Part shown: positions 14,153 to 32,670 of the stretch, one piece after another | Numbering within the stretch: the first letter of the stretch is position 1 | How the letters are laid out: every line of letters begins with the position of its first letter | From: a virus | DNA: 32,670 nt | IMG/VR virus record: IMGVR_UViG_3300044678_003538 | Location: 1 to 32,670 of that record | Direction: 5' to 3' (one strand) | The notes under the pieces: model-generated | Databases searched by the model: none | Told to the model about the DNA's origin: nothing | Seen by the model: only the letters and a program-made list of their open reading frames with translations | Translations under genes and position numbers: made by a program

Positions 14153-15559
14153 ATGTTAAACCCGTTCTTTCTCAATGGCTCTACCCCAGAACAAAATCTC
14201 ATAAATGACCTAGTAAAAGAGGCCATACAGATCCATGGTGTCGATGTTTATTATCTTCCAAGAGAGTACGTCACAAAAAGAACAGTCATAAGAGAAGTAA
14301 TTGAATCTAAATTTACTAATGCTTTTCCACTAGAAGCATACATTGATACTTATGAGGGTTATGAAGGAGCCGGTGTTCTTTTAAGTAAGTTTGGTATTCA
14401 ACCAAGCACTGATATTACTCTTATTATCTCAAAAGAAAGATATGAAACCTATATTACACCATTAATTAAAAATATCCCGAATATAAAATTACCAGACAGA
14501 CCAAAAGAAGGCGATTTAATTTGGTTTCCTTTAGGTGATAGATTGTTTGAAATAAAATTTATTGAACATGAAATTCCTTTTTATCAACTACAAAAAACTT
14601 ATGTTTATAATCTAAAATGTGAACTCTTTAGATATCAAGACGAAACAATTGCGACTGGTATTGATTTCATTGATGACAATACAATAAACGAAGGGTATAC
14701 TGAAATTTACAATATGTTGGGTATTGGTGCAACTGCTTCTGCAACCGCAACCATCGTTAATGGTGGTGTCAGATTTGTTACTGTAACCAATAGGGGCGAT
14801 GGGTATAAAATTCCTCCTCAGGTTTCATTTTCGGCGGCTCCTCCTCCTGGAGAAACTGCTGCTGGTATTGCATCAATGATTTCTGGTATTGTTGATCTTT
14901 GTGAACCAGACGCAACTCTTCTCAGGGTCCAATCTGTTCAACTAACAAATACTGGTTTTGGATATACTGTTGCTCCATCGGTTTCATTCAGTGGCGGTGG
15001 TGGAGGCGGCGCCCAGGCATTTGCAACAATTGGTGACGGTATTGTTGGTATTGTGAGCGTCACAAATGGCGGATCTGGGTTCCTAACGCCTCCAAATATT
15101 ACTTTTGTCGGAGCCGCAACAAGTTCTGCTATCGCGGTTGCTGTTCTTAACAATGGTTCTATTTCACAAATTAATATGATTGATGCTGGTTTGGGTTATA
15201 CAACTGCACCATCAATTGTTATTGATACTCCTTATAGCGCCGGTTTTGGTACTTATATTTTTAATGAAGAAGTTGTCGGTAGTGCATCTAGCATGACGGC
15301 CAGGGTAAAAGACTGGAATGTTCAGACCCTAAGACTACAACTTTCCAATACTTCTGGACCATTTACTCCTGGGGAATTAATTATTGGCCAAGAATCTGGG
15401 GCCAGTTATCAGATTATTAGCGGCAATCAGTTAATAACGATAGACGAAAAAATTGAAGACGGAATAGCGTTTGATGGGTTTACCCAAAACGACGATATCC
15501 AAATAGCCGCCAATGAAATACTTGACTTTAGCGAAAGAAATCCATTCGGGGTGCCATAA
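14153..15559 (+). CDS. gp14: Neck protein gp14 with inserted G-x-G-Y repeat module
   Basis: A 468-residue protein. Residues 1 to about 185 match the gp14 neck family (MLNPFFLNGSTPEQNLINDL, GVDVYYLPREYV, TFTNAFPLEAY-like TNAFPLEAYIDTYEGYEGAG). The C-terminus (EILDFSERNPFG) matches the usual end of cyanophage gp14. T4 gp14 is 256 residues. The excess is explained by an insertion at residues about 188-365 of four repeats (TNRGDGYKIPPQVSF, TNTGFGYTVAPSVSF, TNGGSGFLTPPNITF, DAGLGYTTAPSIVI). With gp13 it forms the head-tail connector. The repeat insertion may be a surface decoration on the neck. The gene ends at 15559 with TAATG overlapping the start of gene 15. Confidence 0.9.
   Translation: MLNPFFLNGSTPEQNLINDLVKEAIQIHGVDVYYLPREYVTKRTVIREVIESKFTNAFPLEAYIDTYEGYEGAGVLLSKFGIQPSTDITLIISKERYETYITPLIKNIPNIKLPDRPKEGDLIWFPLGDRLFEIKFIEHEIPFYQLQKTYVYNLKCELFRYQDETIATGIDFIDDNTINEGYTEIYNMLGIGATASATATIVNGGVRFVTVTNRGDGYKIPPQVSFSAAPPPGETAAGIASMISGIVDLCEPDATLLRVQSVQLTNTGFGYTVAPSVSFSGGGGGGAQAFATIGDGIVGIVSVTNGGSGFLTPPNITFVGAATSSAIAVAVLNNGSISQINMIDAGLGYTTAPSIVIDTPYSAGFGTYIFNEEVVGSASSMTARVKDWNVQTLRLQLSNTSGPFTPGELIIGQESGASYQIISGNQLITIDEKIEDGIAFDGFTQNDDIQIAANEILDFSERNPFGVP
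14716..15250 (+). repeat. Four G-x-G-Y protein repeats inside gp14
   Basis: Four units with the pattern V-(T/L/I)-N-x-G-x-G-(Y/F)-x-x-(P/A)-P-x-(V/I)-x-F, spaced roughly 35-60 residues apart, with Gly/Ala-rich connectors. Related units occur in the 1066-residue protein (about nt 1711-2240 and 3010-3230), in gp8 (about 4435-4650) and in the giant protein (about 11300-11530). Confidence 0.8.
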
Positions 15560-18761: not shown

Positions 18762-21700
18762 ATGTCTGATACAAATCATTACATGGGAAATCCTCTTCTC
18801 AAGAGGGCAAATATTCCCAGTGAATTTACACAAGAGCAATTAGTAGAATTAGCAAAATGCGCTTCTGATCCTGTTTATTTTGCTAAGAATTATATTAAAA
18901 TCGTTAACATTGATGATGGTCTTGTTCCATTTAATATGTGGCCATTTCAAGAAAAGATGCTTAGGACTTTTCATGAAAATAGATTTAGTATTTGTAAACT
19001 TCCTCGTCAGCCACTAGAAGATAATACTCCAATCCCGACTCCTAGTGGGTATAAAAAAATAAAGGATCTAAAAATAAATGATGTTGTTTATGATTTGTAC
19101 GGGAAACGAACAAAAGTCATAAACAAAATAAGTTATAAAAATACTGAAAAATGTTATAAGCTTTCATTTAAAGGAAAAACATTTGAAGAAGAAATCGTTT
19201 GTGATAAGGACCACTTCTGGAGAGTATATTTTGACGACACTTCTTCAGTACTAACAGCAGAGCAAATTTATGATTTAAAAAAAGAAGTTTTCTTAAAAAG
19301 ACAATCGTTTAATACATTAGTTGATAATTGGGGCGAAGTAATAAAATTAGTATCAATAGAAGAAGTCGAGCCCGTAAATGTTTCGTGTGTTGAAGTAGAA
19401 AATAAGGACCATTCTTTTTTATGTGGTAAGAATTTTATACCCACAATGAATTGTGGTAAAGCATTAGCATTAGATACTAAAATTCCAACACCAACTGGTT
19501 GGACCACAATGGGAGAACTAAAAGTTGGTGATGAAGTTTTGTCTCCTAGTGGAGATTCAGTCAAAGTATTAACCAAGACTGATCCAATGTATGATCATAA
19601 GTGTTATAAAATATATTTTGATAATGGAGAAGAAATCGTTGCTGACGCTGATCATTTATGGGAAGTATGCAAAAATAAGCAAAATAGTAAAAAAGAAATA
19701 ATAACAACCGAACAGTTAGTAGAAAAATATAAAAATAAGACTAGCAAAAGTGTTGTAAATTCGTATTATATAAATGTATCAAACTCCATAAATTGTTTCA
19801 CAAAAAAGGAACTCCCTATTGATCCATATTTACTTGGAGTTTGGTTGGGGGATGGTTATTCCGCAGGTGGTAGGATAATTGCGCATAAAAACGATTTTGA
19901 ATTCTACAAAACAAAAATTGATAATATTGGACATATAGCAGATTCTAATAATTGTTATAGATTTAATGTTATTGATTTACATTCAAAACTAAGACAAATA
20001 AATTTAATAAAAAATAAACATATTCCCCAAGATTATCTAAGATCTTCTCACAAAGACCGATTGGAAATCCTTCGGGGTCTTATGGATACAGATGGATCAT
20101 TAAGACCAAATAGTAGATCATTTGAATTTTATCAAAAAAATTATGATTTAATATTACAAGTAATTGAATTATTGGCAAGTTTAGGAATAAAATCAAGAAC
20201 TCGGATTAAAAAAATAAAGGACTGCTTGTATTATACAGTATCATTTAATACTGATGAAATCGTTTTTAATTTACCGAGGAAAAAAAATTTAATAAAAAAA
20301 ATCGATAAACCTCTTTATAGAAATAAAAGAGTCTACATTCAAAAAATAGAAGAAGTAGAAAGTGTTCCGGTTGCATGTATTTCTGTAGATAGTGAGGACG
20401 AATTATTTTTATGTGGCAATTCCTTTATTCCAACCCATAATTCCACAACCGCAGTATCATTCCTTCTACACTACGCAATTTTTAACGAAAACATATCAAT
20501 TGCTATCCTGGCAAACAAGGCATCAACCGCAAAAGATCTATTAGGAAGACTCCAAGTATCTTTTGAAAACCTTCCTAACTGGATGCAACAAGGTATTAAG
20601 TCATGGAATAAAACCTCATTAGAACTTGAAAACGGTTCAAAAATTATAACTGCTTCTACTTCCGCATCCTCTGTTCGGGGTGGTTCTTATAATATTATCT
20701 TTTTGGACGAATTTGCGTTCGTGCCAAATAATGTGGCATTGAATTTCATGAATTCGGTTTATCCGACTATTTCTTCTGGTAAAGACTCAAAAGTTATAGT
20801 TGTTTCTTGTGTAACTAAAGATACTTATTTATTAACGGATAAAGGATACAGAAGATTAGAAAGATTAATAGATGAGTCTAAAAAGGGAGCATATTATACA
20901 AACAATTATATTGTGAGAGGAAAAAATCGATTCTACTCTGGTAATATTGTAGTAAATAATAAAAAATCACCTACAAATATAATAAAAACAAGATATGAAG
21001 AGCTAGAGTGTTCTGAAGACCATAAATTATGGGCATTCAAAGAAGGGAAATACCAATATGTTAGAAGTAATGATCTATCTGTTGGAGATTTTATTGCAGT
21101 AAAATATAATCAACAAATATTTGGTAACGATGATTATATTGGTTATAATCCAGAAAAAGGTAAATGCACAAACTGTTTTTCCTGTGATTATGTCAATGAG
21201 GACATTGCATATTTTGTAGGATTATACGTTGCGGAGGGATATGCAAGAGAGGTTATTAGCAAGCGCACAGGGTCTCTTACGATGGGTCAAATTGTAATAA
21301 GTTGTGGTGATGATATCACAGAATCTTTGAACAAATTAGGAGTATCATATCAAGAAACAGACGAGGTTCATTATACAATAAACTCAAAACATCTTGTTGA
21401 ATTTTTAAAACTACTCGGGTTTAATATCAAAAATAAAGCAACTCAAAAAGTACTACCGGATAAAGTGTTATCGTGGTCTAAGAAAAATATTACTGCCCTA
21501 TTAAGAGGCATGTTTGATGGTGATGGTGGAGTGACTAAAAATGGTAGAGTAGCATATACCTCTACATCGAGAGAACTAATTAGGCAAGTGCAACTTTTAC
21601 TAGCAAATTTGGGTATTATTGGAACTGTTCGTAAAAATATATCGGCACCAACTAAACTTGTAAAAGTATATTCTACGCGTTATACTATTGAAATAGAAGG

Positions 21701-23150
21701 AAGTCACTCAGTCAAATATTTTGAGGAGATTGGTTTTGGTCTTAAAAGAAAACATGATCGCATATGTCATTTAAAAATTCCTAGAAAGATAGGATCAAAT
21801 TCTGATTTTGTTCCGAATTCTGCGGTTATTATAAGAGAGAATAAAAATAGGGAAATTCATGAATTAGGTCTTTTTATTGGTCGAGGAAAGAAATTTAAAA
21901 ATTTCTCTAGGGGGTTTTTAATCTCTCATAAAGAGAAAATATACGAGCATTCCAATGAAATTCTAAAAGAATTCTTTGATGATAATGTCCAAGAGGACAT
22001 GTATTGGTTAGAAATTAAAAGTATAGAAAAATCAGAAAATGAGGTTTTTGATGTTTCACTGCCAGATATTAAAGAAGATAAGTGGGCTCACTCGGTTCTT
22101 TATAATAACTTTTTAGGACATCAAACTCCTAATGGACTTAATCATTTCTATAAAATGTGGGATGAGGCCATAAAGAAAGAGAATGATTATATTCCATTAG
22201 AAATTAATTGGAACGATGTTCCTGGAAGAGACGATGAATGGAAGAGAAAAACTATTGCAAACTTGGGCTCCCAGAAGGCCTTCGACCAGGAGTTTAATTG
22301 CTCCTTCCTCGGATCATCAGACACCCTAATCTCTGGAGCAAAACTCCAAACACTAGTACATAATAAACCAATAAAATCCAAAAAGTTCCTTGACACTTTT
22401 GAAGAGCCGATAGAAGAACATCAATACATGATAACGGTTGACGTTGCAAGAGGCGTCGATCTTGACTATTCGGCATTTACTGTTATTGACATAACCAAAA
22501 TGCCTTATAAAATGGTAGCAAAATACAGGGACAACACAATCAAACCGATTATGTTCCCATACATCGTTAAGGACGTTGGGCTCCATTATAATAAGGCGTT
22601 TGTTTTATGTGAAACAAATGACGTTGGAGATCAGGTTGCCAATGCCCTCCATTATGACCTTCAATACCCCAACCTACTTACCTGTTTTATTAAAGGAAGA
22701 CAGGGGCAAATTTTAGGTCAGGGGTTTGGTGGAAACCGGGTCGAGTATGGCGTTAAAATGTCTAAAAACGTCAAAAAATTAGGCTCAATTAACCTAAAGA
22801 TGTTAATCGAAGAAGATAAACTATTAATCAATGATTACGATACGATTAATGAATTATCGACATTTATTCAAAAATCCAATTCGTTTATGGCCGAGGAAGG
22901 TAAAAATGATGACTTGGTTGCCTGTTTAATTCTATTTGCCTGGGCCTCGACAAACGAATATTTCAAAGAAATCACCGATGATGATATTAGAAAAAGACTA
23001 TTTCAAGAGAAACAGGCCAATGAAGAAAACGATATGCTCCCAATTGGGTTTTTAGAAGACGGTCTGCAACAAGAAACTTTTGTAGAAGACGATAAAATTT
23101 GGAGTGTTGTTTCTAATGAGGAACTAGCCGCCCTTTGGAATTTCTATTAA
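18762..23150 (+). CDS. gp17: Terminase large subunit gp17 interrupted by three inteins
   Basis: The precursor is 1462 residues. Removing inteins of 147, 327 and 439 residues leaves 549 residues, the normal size for cyanophage gp17. The extein reads FSICKLPRQ|CGK|STTAVSFLL at the Walker A P-loop, then IIFLDEFAF (Walker B, precursor about 645-653), then KVIVVS|TPNGLNHFYKMW. The RNase H-like nuclease domain keeps its three acidic positions: D1227 (MITVDVARG), E1284 (VLCETND) and D1383/D1384 (NDDLVA). The mature protein is the ATP-driven motor that packages DNA through the gp20 portal and cuts the concatemer. The chosen ATG has AAAGG eight bases upstream; the alternative ATG at 18783 is less likely. 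Activity must depend on splicing, because two inteins split the ATP-binding loop. Hand-counted samples give about 37% GC for extein and about 24-27% for inteins 2 and 3. Confidence 0.95.
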   Translation: MSDTNHYMGNPLLKRANIPSEFTQEQLVELAKCASDPVYFAKNYIKIVNIDDGLVPFNMWPFQEKMLRTFHENRFSICKLPRQPLEDNTPIPTPSGYKKIKDLKINDVVYDLYGKRTKVINKISYKNTEKCYKLSFKGKTFEEEIVCDKDHFWRVYFDDTSSVLTAEQIYDLKKEVFLKRQSFNTLVDNWGEVIKLVSIEEVEPVNVSCVEVENKDHSFLCGKNFIPTMNCGKALALDTKIPTPTGWTTMGELKVGDEVLSPSGDSVKVLTKTDPMYDHKCYKIYFDNGEEIVADADHLWEVCKNKQNSKKEIITTEQLVEKYKNKTSKSVVNSYYINVSNSINCFTKKELPIDPYLLGVWLGDGYSAGGRIIAHKNDFEFYKTKIDNIGHIADSNNCYRFNVIDLHSKLRQINLIKNKHIPQDYLRSSHKDRLEILRGLMDTDGSLRPNSRSFEFYQKNYDLILQVIELLASLGIKSRTRIKKIKDCLYYTVSFNTDEIVFNLPRKKNLIKKIDKPLYRNKRVYIQKIEEVESVPVACISVDSEDELFLCGNSFIPTHNSTTAVSFLLHYAIFNENISIAILANKASTAKDLLGRLQVSFENLPNWMQQGIKSWNKTSLELENGSKIITASTSASSVRGGSYNIIFLDEFAFVPNNVALNFMNSVYPTISSGKDSKVIVVSCVTKDTYLLTDKGYRRLERLIDESKKGAYYTNNYIVRGKNRFYSGNIVVNNKKSPTNIIKTRYEELECSEDHKLWAFKEGKYQYVRSNDLSVGDFIAVKYNQQIFGNDDYIGYNPEKGKCTNCFSCDYVNEDIAYFVGLYVAEGYAREVISKRTGSLTMGQIVISCGDDITESLNKLGVSYQETDEVHYTINSKHLVEFLKLLGFNIKNKATQKVLPDKVLSWSKKNITALLRGMFDGDGGVTKNGRVAYTSTSRELIRQVQLLLANLGIIGTVRKNISAPTKLVKVYSTRYTIEIEGSHSVKYFEEIGFGLKRKHDRICHLKIPRKIGSNSDFVPNSAVIIRENKNREIHELGLFIGRGKKFKNFSRGFLISHKEKIYEHSNEILKEFFDDNVQEDMYWLEIKSIEKSENEVFDVSLPDIKEDKWAHSVLYNNFLGHQTPNGLNHFYKMWDEAIKKENDYIPLEINWNDVPGRDDEWKRKTIANLGSQKAFDQEFNCSFLGSSDTLISGAKLQTLVHNKPIKSKKFLDTFEEPIEEHQYMITVDVARGVDLDYSAFTVIDITKMPYKMVAKYRDNTIKPIMFPYIVKDVGLHYNKAFVLCETNDVGDQVANALHYDLQYPNLLTCFIKGRQGQILGQGFGGNRVEYGVKMSKNVKKLGSINLKMLIEEDKLLINDYDTINELSTFIQKSNSFMAEEGKNDDLVACLILFAWASTNEYFKEITDDDIRKRLFQEKQANEENDMLPIGFLEDGLQQETFVEDDKIWSVVSNEELAALWNFY
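19011..19451 (+). mobile_element. Intein 1: class 3-like mini-intein, P-loop site a
   Basis: Precursor residues 84-230 (147 residues), with no homing endonuclease. It starts with Pro instead of Cys or Ser (PLEDNTPIPTPSGYKKI aligns with block A). It has the three class 3 marker residues: Trp in block B (CDKDHFW, intein position 70), Cys in block F (VNVSCVEV, position 126) and Thr in block G (FIPTMN, position 145). It ends in Asn, and the first C-extein residue is Cys231. In class 3 inteins the block F Cys replaces the missing first nucleophile. The penultimate residue is Met rather than the usual His, which may slow Asn cyclisation. It lies between PRQ and CGK of the Walker A motif. Confidence 0.9.
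19452..19460 (+). other. Three-codon extein (Cys-Gly-Lys) between inteins 1 and 2
   Basis: TGT GGT AAA is the only extein sequence between the two inteins. With PRQ before intein 1 and STT after intein 2 it rebuilds RQCGKSTT, the Walker A P-loop, including the phosphate-binding Lys. The Cys is the +1 residue for intein 1, and the Lys is the -1 residue for intein 2. Confidence 0.9.
19461..20441 (+). mobile_element. Intein 2: class 3 intein with LAGLIDADG endonuclease, P-loop site b
   Basis: Precursor residues 234-560 (327 residues). It starts with Ala (ALALDTKIPTPTGWTTMGEL) and resembles the class 3 DnaB and terminase inteins of actinobacteria and their phages. Marker residues are Trp at intein position 67 (DADHLW), Cys at 306 (VPVACISV) and Thr at 325 (FIPTHN). 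It ends His-Asn, followed by Ser561. A homing endonuclease domain with two LAGLIDADG-type motifs lies between the splicing halves: LLGVWLGDG near precursor residue 357 and ILRGLMDTDG near 437, both with their acidic residue. Insertion is between Lys and Ser of GKS. A 300-base sample (19681-19980) is 27% GC by hand count. Confidence 0.93.
20808..22124 (+). mobile_element. Intein 3: class 1 intein with LAGLIDADG endonuclease and C-terminal Gln
   Basis: Precursor residues 683-1121 (439 residues). It starts with Cys (CVTKDTYLLTDKGYRRLE, block A), has block B ELECSEDHKLW and ends FLGHQ with Thr1122 as +1 residue. The normal first nucleophile and the absence of the block F Cys place it in class 1, a different lineage from inteins 1 and 2. 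The last residue is Gln rather than Asn, a known minority variant. Endonuclease motifs are FVGLYVAEGYA near residue 818 and LLRGMFDGDGG near 914. A CTNCFSC cluster just before the first motif could bind metal. The site is VVS|TPNG, a conserved strand after Walker B. Confidence 0.93.
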
Positions 23151-26044: not shown

Positions 26045-27733
26045 ATGGCAAAACTTTTTGGATTTTCTATTAGTGATACAATAAAACTAAGCCAGTCGGC
26101 AGTCTCCCCCATTCCTCAAAATAACGAGGATGGGGTTGACTATTATTTAACGTCTGGTTTTTTTGGATCTTATGTTGATATCGAAGGTGTTTATAGAACC
26201 GAATATGATCTAATTCGTAGATATCGTGAAATGTCTCTTCACCCAGAAGTTGATTCTGCCATTGAAGATATTGTAAACGAGGCAATTGTATCAGATTCTA
26301 ATGATAGTCCGGTTCAAATAGAACTATCAAACCTAAACGCAAGTGACGGCATAAAGCAAAAAATAAGAGACGAGTTTAAATATATTCTACAACTCTTAGA
26401 TTTTGATAAAAAGTGCCACGAAATTTATCGAAACTGGTATGTTGACGGCAGACTTTATTATCATAAAGTAATCGATTTTAAAAAACCAGAACTCGGAATT
26501 CAAGAACTTAGATATATCGATAGCCTCAAAATGAGGTATGTAAGACAGGCAAAGAAATCTGAAAAAGACGTAAATAGATTAAATCGCATGGGGGAAGAAC
26601 TCGATCCAATGCGTCAGTCTTTCCCTGAGATTGAAGAATACTTTGTTTATAATTCAAAACCCAATTATCCATTATCCAATACTTCTATTAGTGCAACCTC
26701 TTCTGAGAATGCCAAAAGTGATGGGGCAATCAAATTTGCCAAAGACAGTATTGTTTATTGCACTTCTGGTCTGGTTGATCGAAATAAAAATACGACACTT
26801 TCTTATCTCAATAAGGCGATCAAATCACTTAATCAACTAAGAATGATTGAGGACAGTATTGTGATTTATCGAATGGTAAGAGGAACCGAAAGAAGGATTT
26901 TCTATATTGACGTGGGTAACATGCCCAAAGTGAAGGCCGAACAATACCTCAAAGAAACTATGATGAGGTATAGAAATAAACTAAACTATAACATTGAAAC
27001 TGGTGAGGTCCAGAATGATCGGAGATTCCAGAGTCTCATGGATGATTATTGGCTCCCTAGAAGAGAGGGCGGAAGAGGAACCGAAGTAACAACTCTTCCA
27101 GGTTCTAATAACCTAGGAGAACTAACTGACCTCAATTATTTCCAAAGAAAACTTTATAAGTCTTTAAATGTTCCTTCTTCAAGAATTGACGGCGAAAGTG
27201 GATTTAATCTCGGTAGATCTTCTGAGATCCTAAGGGACGAGGTTAAGTTTTCAAAGTTTGTTGGAAGACTGAGAAAAAGATTCTCTAAACTTTTTGTCGA
27301 TCTTCTTCGGACCCAGCTGATTCTCAAGAACATTATAACCCCAGAAGACTGGGAAGCAATGTCTGAACATATTCAGTTTGATTATCTTTATGATAATCAT
27401 TTTGCCGAACTTAAAGAATCAGAACTCCTGACAGAAAGACTGAATATGGTGTCAATGGCCGAGCCTTATGTTGGTCGATATTTCTCCCAAGATTACCTAA
27501 GAAGAAAAGTTCTAAGACAGACCGACGAGGAAATTGTTGAGCAGGATATTCTTATTAAAAAAGAAATCGAAGAAGGAATTATTCCCGATCCAACGATCCC
27601 TGTAGATCCCGAGACCGGTCAACCCCTCGCAGAACCCCCAGGAGAGGCTATTCAGGGTGATATGGGCAAGGTCCCAACAGAGCCTGGTGTTGATACAAAG
27701 GCCATGGAAATGCCCAAAGGTGGTGAGATCTAA
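26045..27733 (+). CDS. gp20: Portal vertex protein gp20
   Basis: A 562-residue protein, close to T4 gp20 (524). Diagnostic blocks are YRTEYDLIRRYREMSLHPEV, DSAIEDIVNEAIVSD, CHEIYRNWYVDGRLYYHKVI, VIYRMVRGTERRIFYIDVGN and LPGSNNLGELTDLNYFQRKL, which are the most conserved parts of T4-like portals and the basis of cyanophage g20 diversity surveys. Twelve copies form the ring at one head vertex. The portal starts prohead assembly, docks the gp17 motor and later binds the neck. The C-terminal 60 residues are a Pro/Glu-rich tail (DPTIPVDPETGQPLAEPPGE). No inserted module was seen. Confidence 0.96.
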   Translation: MAKLFGFSISDTIKLSQSAVSPIPQNNEDGVDYYLTSGFFGSYVDIEGVYRTEYDLIRRYREMSLHPEVDSAIEDIVNEAIVSDSNDSPVQIELSNLNASDGIKQKIRDEFKYILQLLDFDKKCHEIYRNWYVDGRLYYHKVIDFKKPELGIQELRYIDSLKMRYVRQAKKSEKDVNRLNRMGEELDPMRQSFPEIEEYFVYNSKPNYPLSNTSISATSSENAKSDGAIKFAKDSIVYCTSGLVDRNKNTTLSYLNKAIKSLNQLRMIEDSIVIYRMVRGTERRIFYIDVGNMPKVKAEQYLKETMMRYRNKLNYNIETGEVQNDRRFQSLMDDYWLPRREGGRGTEVTTLPGSNNLGELTDLNYFQRKLYKSLNVPSSRIDGESGFNLGRSSEILRDEVKFSKFVGRLRKRFSKLFVDLLRTQLILKNIITPEDWEAMSEHIQFDYLYDNHFAELKESELLTERLNMVSMAEPYVGRYFSQDYLRRKVLRQTDEEIVEQDILIKKEIEEGIIPDPTIPVDPETGQPLAEPPGEAIQGDMGKVPTEPGVDTKAMEMPKGGEI

Positions 27734-29856: not shown

Positions 29857-31764
29857 GTGGCACTTAAAAAACCTACTGAATATTTTAAAAAACAAAATAA
29901 GGTAGTATCTGTTGATGAAAGCATAGAGCAGGTAGCAAAACTACCTGAAATCAACACGTTTTCTGATGCCTTTGAATCGTTTAAAAACAATCTAAGCAAG
30001 ATTGAGACTCTTTCTTCTTTTTCGGATACTCTTGATAATTATAGGATTAATGTAGAAAGAATTAACCATATTTCAGAAAAAGTAGATTCTATTAATGAAG
30101 AGATTCAATCTCACCTAAAAAAGGAAGATCTGGATCATGCCATGATGGCACAACTTCTTGTTGTAGAAGATAGTCTAAAAGAAGTTCAGGCCAAGGTAAA
30201 AGGGATCAATGAAAAGAATCTTACCGAAATAAGAATAGACGTTTCTACTCTTACTGATTCTGTAAACGACTTTTTGGAAAATGATGTCCCAAAATACAAA
30301 AAATTAATTGTAGATAGTGAGTTTAGAACCGATAAAAGATTCACCAAATTTGAAGAAAATATCAATGAAACCCTTGAAGGTATTGGGGAACTTGTTGATA
30401 AGAAGTACCTAGAACTCACTGAAACCTTAGAAGGAATCAATGAAAAAAGTCTCTCTAGTATTCTTGAAGACTTTAAGTTAGTCGAAGAAAGTCTTAAAAA
30501 AATTCAAGAAGAAGAAATTCCAAAGTATAAGGGTTTTATTGTAGAAACCGAAAGAAAAACCGAAAGTAAACTCGATGAGTATGATGAAAAACTCTCTACA
30601 ACATTAACGTCTTTTAATTCTACTATTACGGAGAATTTAAATAATACTCTTGATAAATTATCTTTAATTGAAGACAATAAAAATCAATTAATTTCGGAGG
30701 TTACCCAAAAATTTAAAGAGCTTAAAGAATTAAGTCATTTAATTTCAAAAGAAGTTGAAACTAATGCTTCTTATAAGGAGCAAATCAAAGAAAGAGTTGC
30801 TGGTCTAGAAGTCAATATTCTTCGTAATGAAAAGCACATAAAGGATCAAAATAAAAATCTTCAAGAAATTGAAGAGGAAGTAAAGGATACTCTTTCAAAA
30901 ATAAATGTTGAAGAAATTGAAAGGCAAAATCATAAACTTGCCAAAAAAATTAAGTATCTAGAAGAAGTATTTGAAAAGTTTAGTGAAAAAGAAATTCTAT
31001 CTGAGAACAATTTTACCGAACCTCCTTCTGTAAAAAATACTGATCCAGTAACTCCTTTAGATCAGAATTTTGTAACCTTAGATCAACTTCAGCAGCATTA
31101 TAGATTATTCATTAATAGGGTCCAACAACAGCTCGCAACCCTTGGTGGCGGCGGTGAAACCAGATTAAAGTATCTTGATGATATTGTTGGCATCGCAACT
31201 AATCCGGCTGCTTATGATGGCAAGTTTCTTAGATATAATCATCCAGAAAAAAACTTTGAATTTGTAACAGTAGAGGCTGGTGGTCCTACTGATAACATCA
31301 CGACAAATTCTATTAGTATTGTTGATAATGAATCAGATACTCAATATTTCGATGAAGTAGTAACCCTACAAAAAGCAACTACTGCCGTAACAAATACCAC
31401 TAACCCAACATCAATTCATAAGGCAATATCAATTTCAAATTATGCCACAGTCGAGTATTTAATTCAGGCAACAAAGGGTCTTTCTGTCAATACGGTGAAA
31501 TTATTGTCGGTTAACGATACCATAAATATAAATACTATTGAGGCTTATTCGGCATCAATTGGTTCAACTTTTGTTAATTATAGTATAAATATTGATGATG
31601 GTTTTGTGAATCTTATTGCAACCCCAAATGATATATCCACAATCGTATATAATATATCATACACTGCAATCACTAGACAAAACGCCGAATTTATAATCAA
31701 AACAGAAGACGATCAAATAATCCTTACTGAAGATGGGGACATGATACAAACAGAGGTAGCATGA
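29857..31764 (+). CDS. Coiled-coil fibre-like virion protein with tandem 77-residue repeats
   Basis: A 635-residue protein with a GTG start (MALKKPTEYFKKQNK); no in-frame ATG nearby gives a better start. Residues about 15-385 are a long, almost continuous coiled coil rich in Glu, Lys, Leu and Ser, including two copies of a 77-residue unit (115-191 and 192-268). Residues about 393-441 repeat the motif of the 223-residue gene upstream (DPVTPLDQNFVTLDQLQQHY, RVQQQLATLGGGGETRLKYL). The C-terminal part (about 450-635) is beta-rich and ends with two echoing strands (FIIKTEDDQIILTEDGDMIQ). This is the architecture of a trimeric fibre: helical shaft, connector, beta tip. The stop overlaps the next ATG (ATGA). 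Confidence 0.75.
   Translation: MALKKPTEYFKKQNKVVSVDESIEQVAKLPEINTFSDAFESFKNNLSKIETLSSFSDTLDNYRINVERINHISEKVDSINEEIQSHLKKEDLDHAMMAQLLVVEDSLKEVQAKVKGINEKNLTEIRIDVSTLTDSVNDFLENDVPKYKKLIVDSEFRTDKRFTKFEENINETLEGIGELVDKKYLELTETLEGINEKSLSSILEDFKLVEESLKKIQEEEIPKYKGFIVETERKTESKLDEYDEKLSTTLTSFNSTITENLNNTLDKLSLIEDNKNQLISEVTQKFKELKELSHLISKEVETNASYKEQIKERVAGLEVNILRNEKHIKDQNKNLQEIEEEVKDTLSKINVEEIERQNHKLAKKIKYLEEVFEKFSEKEILSENNFTEPPSVKNTDPVTPLDQNFVTLDQLQQHYRLFINRVQQQLATLGGGGETRLKYLDDIVGIATNPAAYDGKFLRYNHPEKNFEFVTVEAGGPTDNITTNSISIVDNESDTQYFDEVVTLQKATTAVTNTTNPTSIHKAISISNYATVEYLIQATKGLSVNTVKLLSVNDTININTIEAYSASIGSTFVNYSINIDDGFVNLIATPNDISTIVYNISYTAITRQNAEFIIKTEDDQIILTEDGDMIQTEVA
30199..30660 (+). repeat. Two tandem copies of a 77-residue (231-base) unit
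   Basis: Unit 1 is residues 115-191 and unit 2 is residues 192-268 of the coiled-coil fibre protein. Matching landmarks keep an exact 77-residue offset: GINEKNL/GINEKSL, VPKYKKLIV/IPKYKGFIV and DSEFRTDKRF/ETERKTESKL. The DNA copies are diverged, so this is an old duplication. Partial resemblance before unit 1 (EDSLKEVQ) and inside unit 2 (EESLKKIQ) hints at a shorter underlying period. Confidence 0.8.
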
Positions 31765-32670
31765 TAGGAACAATCAAAGTCAGTCAAATACCACCAGCCG
31801 GGCCAATATCCGGAGCAGATAATCTGATCGTAAATCAATCAGGTAGTACTCGTCTGACTACTGTTGGTGAAGTAGTAGGTATTGTTACTTATGTTGGAGC
31901 GTCTGGAATTTCTAGTTATGCCTCTGTTTCTGGTATAGCCACAGTAGCCGAAGGTCTTACTGGAAACCCTTCAATTTCCGTTTCGGCTTTAAGTGTTTCT
32001 GGTGTTTCAACATTAGGAAATGTTCAGGTTTCTTCTGGAATTGTTACTGCCACTTCAGGTATTGTTACTTATTATGGTGACGGTAGTAAATTACAAAACA
32101 TTATTTCTGGAGTAGGTATCCAGTCCACTGGAACTGTAATTGGGACTGGAATTACTACTCTTAATTTTACTGGTCTAGGAAATACTTTTTCGGTTAACGG
32201 AAGCACTGTTGATATTAATATTTCTGGTAATACAAATATTTCTTATGCTTCTACTACAAGAACTTTAAGCAGCAGCACTGGTATTGGAACTGTTCTGCCA
32301 TTAGTCTCCACGTCTTCGGCGGGTTTGGCGCCGGCAACAGGCACCCCGAGCGGGAAGTACCTCAAGGACGACGGCACCTGGGCCACGGTCGAGGCTAGCG
32401 CATCCCCTGCAGGTAGTGGCACCGAGATTCAGTACCGCAACAGCAGCGTGCTGGGCGCGATCCCCAACAGCAGCGTGGATGGCGCCACGGGCGCCGTGAC
32501 GCTGGCGAGGCTGATCCTGGCGGCGAATGGTGCGGCTAACACGCCGCCGATGGCACTGACTGGGACGTGGTTCACGGGCGGCACCAGCACAACCACCAAG
32601 CCAGCGTTACTGATTGAACCAACTGGCACCACGTCAACAAGCTGGAGCACTGCTGGCACGGGGTTTGGCG
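31761..32670 (+). CDS. Tail-fibre-like protein, 5' part (runs off window end), chimeric composition
   Basis: The ATG overlaps the upstream stop (ATGA), and the frame stays open to the window end, giving at least 303 residues. The N-terminus MIGTIKVSQIPPAGPISGAD resembles the base of phage fibres that attach to the tail. Residues up to about 170 are Gly/Ser/Thr/Val-rich and repetitive (SSGIVTATSGIVTYYGDGSK). From about residue 178 (LPLVSTSSAGLAPATGTPSG) the protein switches to a different module (AGSGTEIQYRNSSVLGAIPN, LTGTWFTGGTSTTTKPALLI) seen in diverse phage fibre proteins. At the same point GC content rises from 35% (31981-32280) to 65% (32341-32640) by hand count. The frame is continuous across the change. 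Confidence 0.75.
   Translation, partial: MIGTIKVSQIPPAGPISGADNLIVNQSGSTRLTTVGEVVGIVTYVGASGISSYASVSGIATVAEGLTGNPSISVSALSVSGVSTLGNVQVSSGIVTATSGIVTYYGDGSKLQNIISGVGIQSTGTVIGTGITTLNFTGLGNTFSVNGSTVDINISGNTNISYASTTRTLSSSTGIGTVLPLVSTSSAGLAPATGTPSGKYLKDDGTWATVEASASPAGSGTEIQYRNSSVLGAIPNSSVDGATGAVTLARLILAANGAANTPPMALTGTWFTGGTSTTTKPALLIEPTGTTSTSWSTAGTGFG

Follow-up and report, generated by a model that had tools for sequence, protein, structure and literature searches.

The stretch of DNA analysed here (the window) is IMG/VR record IMGVR_UViG_3300044678_003538, positions 1 to 32,670, with a length of 32,670 bp. Judged from its gene content, it is the structural region of a Kyanoviridae-like freshwater cyanomyovirus with about 36% GC. 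Pfam and PHROG matches show T4-type terminase, sheath, tube and portal genes in cyanophage order, and the phage was identified as a T4-like cyanomyovirus because its portal protein is of the T4 type (Table 1). The nearest DNA relative of the window, both among the phage records and among cultured phages, is Synechococcus phage B23 (Kyanoviridae), with which it also has gene order in common. The gene before the tip gene encodes a coiled-coil fibre-like protein, and its RLKYLDDIVGIATNP region is present in gp272 of B23 as well. In this corresponding B23 fibre the terminal tip has a GC content of 32%, and low GC is therefore the expected state at the end of the fibre.

Table 1. Position of the portal gene and of the fibre features in the window.
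Feature	Position	Strand	Evidence
T4-like portal (gp20)	26045..27733	+	Pfam Portal_T4, 2.3e-181
Coiled-coil fibre-like protein, just before the tip gene	29857..31764	+	Homology to the N-terminal part of B23 gp272
Tail-fibre/adhesin gene, cut off by the contig end after 303 codons	31761..32670	+	ORF list, translation
N-terminal fibre head, diverged from G002 (58-75%, 60-column blocks)	31761..31904	+	Pairwise alignment
Low-GC stem, 98-100% identical to G001/G002	31905..32303	+	BLASTN, alignment
20-bp junction GTCTCCACGTCTTCGGCGGG, coding VSTSSAG	32304..32323	+	Exact scan, contexts, codon table
High-GC tip module, probably foreign, start only	32302..32670	+	BLASTN, 369 bp, 97.6% DNA identity to the L008 fibre

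The fibre gene that follows runs without a stop from an ATG at 31761 to the end of the contig, and its weak PHROG matches (4.5e-10) are to baseplate wedge and fibre proteins of T4-like cyanophages. The initial annotation had described a jump from 35% to 65% GC within this single frame, accompanied by a flip in codon choice, and our measurements agree on both points. In the composition profile, GC was 0.353 at 31950-32249 and 0.637 at 32250-32549. A base-by-base scan located the steepest 300/300-bp step of the window, +0.33, at 32305; with a binomial error of about 0.04 on such a difference, this corresponds to about 8 standard errors. The GC content of third codon positions was 0.17 before the junction (31761-32303) and 0.76 after it (32304-32669), as compared to 0.32-0.35 in the portal and sheath genes. 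Only the position had to be corrected, since 32281, where the change had been placed, is about 20 bp short of the exact join at 32302-32304. In about 62 other related cyanomyovirus fibre loci, collected by a search with the stem protein, no in-frame step near +0.30 was found, the largest upward step being +0.21. The next-largest step elsewhere in the window, +0.22 at 14718 (14700-14750), falls inside ORF 14153-15559.

When IMG/VR was scanned with a 29-mer of the tip, one other contig was found, L008. Its fibre gene is 97.6% identical in DNA to positions 32302-32670 of the window, and BLASTN detected no further similarity between window and L008 beyond these 369 bp; upstream of the shared tip, the L008 fibre is unrelated to the stem of the window. 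The two tips differ by 5 synonymous and 4 nonsynonymous changes in 122 codons. L008 is a fragment of 62% GC with lambda-like packaging genes, and its large terminase shows 59.7% identity over 99% to that of S-LBS1, a siphovirus infecting freshwater Synechococcus whose GC content is 60.2% (PMC6157547). By the criteria of high GC and of a large terminase nearest to those of S-LBS1, S-CBS1 and S-CBS3, L008 is an S-LBS1-like cyanosiphovirus. S-LBS1 is the closest cultured phage to this carrier of the window's tip (terminase 60% identical), but its own fibre, of 53.8% GC, lacks the VSTSSAG linker; S-LBS1 is related to the tip carrier and is not the source. In L168, a near relative, the tip family runs more than 200 residues past the part held in the window. 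The window therefore contains only the start of the tip: the contig stops 347 bp past the 20-bp junction and includes approximately the initial 122 residues of the foreign module.

A recent acquisition of the tip from a high-GC phage, as proposed in the initial annotation, is thus supported by the 97.6% DNA identity to L008 and by the low GC of the B23 tip. The tip proteins had no match in 50,697 phage records and none in plasmids, and no cultured phage with the window's tip was found. Genome contigs, in which a host for the tips was sought, contained neither a match to the degenerate linker pattern nor a relative of the gene following the tip.

These data bear on two readings that dispense with a transfer into the cyanomyovirus. 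The high-GC tip might be an old resident module, its composition dictated by its protein sequence; the stem end is homologous, at the protein level, to the same linker family as the tip side, and the junction region is ancestrally common. However, a change of third-position GC from 0.17 to 0.76 is not set by protein sequence, the DNA match to a 62%-GC phage contradicts long residence, and a comparable step occurs in 0 of the approximately 62 related low-GC loci, which makes this reading extremely improbable. We consider it just as improbable that the tip passed the other way, from the cyanomyovirus into the high-GC phages. One pair of sequences cannot prove a direction, but in third-position GC the tip (0.76) is close to the stem of the high-GC phage itself (0.80) and unlike the recipient (0.17-0.35), and the tip family is carried by many high-GC relatives. 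The transfer was most probably directed from high-GC to low-GC phage.

Two further records, IMGVR_UViG_3300046011_012270 (G001) and 3300046010_013872 (G002), represent the same phage type as the window. They are separate records with neighbouring IMG dataset numbers, possibly from one site and perhaps dependent samples, and they are identical to each other across 8326 bp spanning the junction. Their backbone is 93-98% identical to that of the window, in 60-column blocks immediately before and within the fibre head the identity is 58-93%, and over stem and junction (31904-32323) it is about 99%. After the same 20 bases, G001 and G002 carry a different high-GC tip than the window. At 31904-31919, inside the fibre gene, the identity with G002 rises abruptly, from about 60% to 98-100%. 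Because of this jump, these positions appear to be a second recombination breakpoint, and the stem itself would have been recently exchanged.

Over 1128 bp, the second tip and the gene following it share 94% identity with G007/G013, and over 763 bp about 94% with G004; no other similarity of G002 to these records was detected at the threshold used. G004 is a contractile-tailed phage with 47% GC, whose capsid is 78% identical to that of cyanophage S-TIM5. G007/G013 is siphovirus-like, with 66% GC, a portal distantly like that of S-CBS4 and a sigma factor closest to, and below the cut-off of, the cyanobacterial RpoD subfamily model. In both pairs, window and L008 as well as G002 and G007, genomes that are otherwise unrelated have nearly the same distal fibre DNA, as is characteristic of exchanged tips. 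With the window and its sisters, L008, G004 and G007/G013, no fewer than four unrelated cyanophage types thus have two tips in common. The gene next to the G002 tip (L006:196-927, minus strand; 243 aa) belongs to a family without assignment and moves together with the tip. Its product has a 92% identical counterpart in G007 and weak relatives in B23 and S-CREM2, and is possibly a fibre chaperone.

The 20-bp junction sequence was found exactly in 14 IMG/VR stretches, in frame at the VSTSSAG linker in all of them, behind several unrelated stems and before three or more types of tip. In L013, L018 and L019, which are records of a single phage, the copy is a broken stub. Four of the 19 matches to a degenerate pattern (L021, L022, L024 and L025) proved to be unrelated sequence and were set aside. 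On the stem side, no non-sister locus stays identical for more than 8 bases to the left of the 20-mer, so that about 28 bp of identity are available for recombination. Codon usage was tabulated for 30 linkers, gathered mostly by tip homology and in a few cases by match to the 20-mer. Inside the 20-mer several codons are near-fixed (GTC for 24 of 28 Val, TCC for 20 of 23 Ser and GCG for 24 of 29 Ala); the invariant Gly at its end is encoded by four codons (12/8/7/3), and the neighbouring codons are variable. In this set of related sequences, synonymous positions thus look conserved at the DNA level inside the 20-mer, unlike its flanks. A recent spread by recombination would equally yield this pattern of codons. 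It is rather unlikely that the 20-mer is a dedicated crossover site acting at the DNA level, either maintained because it promotes exchange or serving as the target of a recombinase, at which T4-like, S-TIM5-like and siphovirus-like cyanophages pool their tips.

At the protein level, the stem holds cyanophage repeats, VTYYGDGSKLQN, and its end is a linker repeat, NTNISYASTTRTLSSSTGIGTVLPL. A linker repeat of the same type, in a moderate-GC form, builds the long tail fibres of the Kyanoviridae S-CREM2 and ME01, in which repeated NLSYTSSTRELASSTGTNVTLPL linkers match the stem end of the window; in those two phages, however, the repeats run on into a fibre of moderate GC (about 0.50), and no foreign tip was seen after them. 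The protein linker family is old. From the kinship of the stem end to the S-CREM2 and ME01 repeats it follows that donor and recipient had a homologous linker before the swap. In G007/G013 the linker region (108 bp, 96%) is repeated 2.3 kb downstream, where it is joined to a broken beginning of a tip of the window's type; in G007 the copies lie at L029:7870-8523 and L029:9924-11183, both on the minus strand. This second copy looks like the scar of an earlier insertion.

The junction could also be an artefact of assembly, with a low-GC cyanomyovirus contig fused to a fragment of a high-GC phage that co-occurred with it. Tips of the window's family occur commonly in freshwater viromes. Like G004, G005 and L008, the window and both sister records end 0.2-1.3 kb past the junction, a typical site of chimeric ends, so that no contig is seen to re-enter low-GC cyanomyovirus DNA after the high-GC tip. 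Shared cassettes, however, likewise make assembly graphs end near such a junction. Moreover, three records join the same stem to the same foreign 20-mer, with two kinds of sequence beyond it, and the identity of G001 and G002 continues across the junction. The 8 bases to the left of the 20-mer are too few for a k-mer bridge, unless the low-GC genome already had the linker, and stem and tip are fused in frame, at a domain boundary. For these reasons we regard a chimeric assembly as unlikely.

Two tips on the same stem might instead derive from programmed switching within the phage, by an invertase, a shufflon-like cassette array or a diversity-generating retroelement, with no exchange between phages. 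G007/G013 would fit such a system in having its second linker copy 2.3 kb away and a serine recombinase gene within a few kb. However, this recombinase is integrase-sized (438 aa), and serine recombinases are missing from most records: they were found in 4 of 15 and not in the window, G001, G002, G004 or G010, the records being fragments. The 15 records, all fragments, gave no match to a reverse transcriptase (RVT_1), and whole-tip swaps are unlike the adenine mutagenesis of a diversity-generating retroelement. A confident tyrosine integrase was likewise found in none of the 15. Programmed switching is therefore quite improbable, and a dedicated recombinase in tip exchange is not supported.

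The reading that we prefer, with a probability of about 0.83, is that the distal part of the fibre of the cyanomyovirus was recently replaced by a high-GC cyanophage tip, through short-homology recombination at a recurrent linker. According to this model, homologous recombination over approximately 20-28 bp of identity would have exchanged the distal fibre part of a phage with about 36% GC for the tip module, at a linker common to the modular fibres of several unrelated cyanophage lineages. As the linker lies at a domain boundary and the frame is preserved, any tip joined there could yield a working fibre. Recombination at a linker that keeps both frame and fold seems to be the simplest account. 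One low-GC stem would have received at least two tips in the sister phages, and because the same stem is found with at least two tips, tips may turn over faster than the rest of the genome. In view of what is generally known of phages, the tip may plausibly bind the host receptor and alter host range.

Exchange of fibres, also with their chaperones, between unrelated phages is already established, and the notable detail of the present case is the shared linker. In the coliphages P2, Mu, P1 and lambda and in T4-like coliphages, distal fibre parts and assembly genes are exchanged via conserved segments, and some of these systems employ an invertase. The likeness lies in modular fibres whose distal parts are swapped between unrelated phages; hosts and sequences differ, however, and neither the window nor its sisters gave evidence of an invertase. 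In the Alteromonas phages A5, V22 and P24, a host-recognition module made of the fibre and the next gene, a chaperone, is common to different morphotypes on related hosts, and horizontal exchange was inferred (PMC10579305). There, entire modules are concerned and the transfers were described as old (PMC10579305), whereas here the distal portion of a single gene (with the next gene in the case of G002) appears to have moved recently, at a 20-bp linker and across a gap from 36% to 65% GC. In the part of the literature covered, mostly titles and abstracts, we found no published account of the VSTSSAG linker or of tip sharing among T4-like, S-TIM5-like and siphovirus-like cyanophages. The locus offers a concrete case in which lytic T4-like cyanophages would gain fibre ends from unrelated and compositionally distant siphoviruses, beyond their close relatives; donor siphoviruses and T4-like cyanophages probably have cyanobacterial hosts in common. 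The short linker provides a searchable tag for counting, in freshwater viromes, how often and between which partners tips are exchanged, and the influence of a tip on host binding can be put to the test.

Elsewhere in the window, the gene for the large subunit of the terminase (18762-23150; 1462 aa) gave LAGLIDADG, Hint and intein-splicing matches at separate places, which suggests that this protein carries two inteins.
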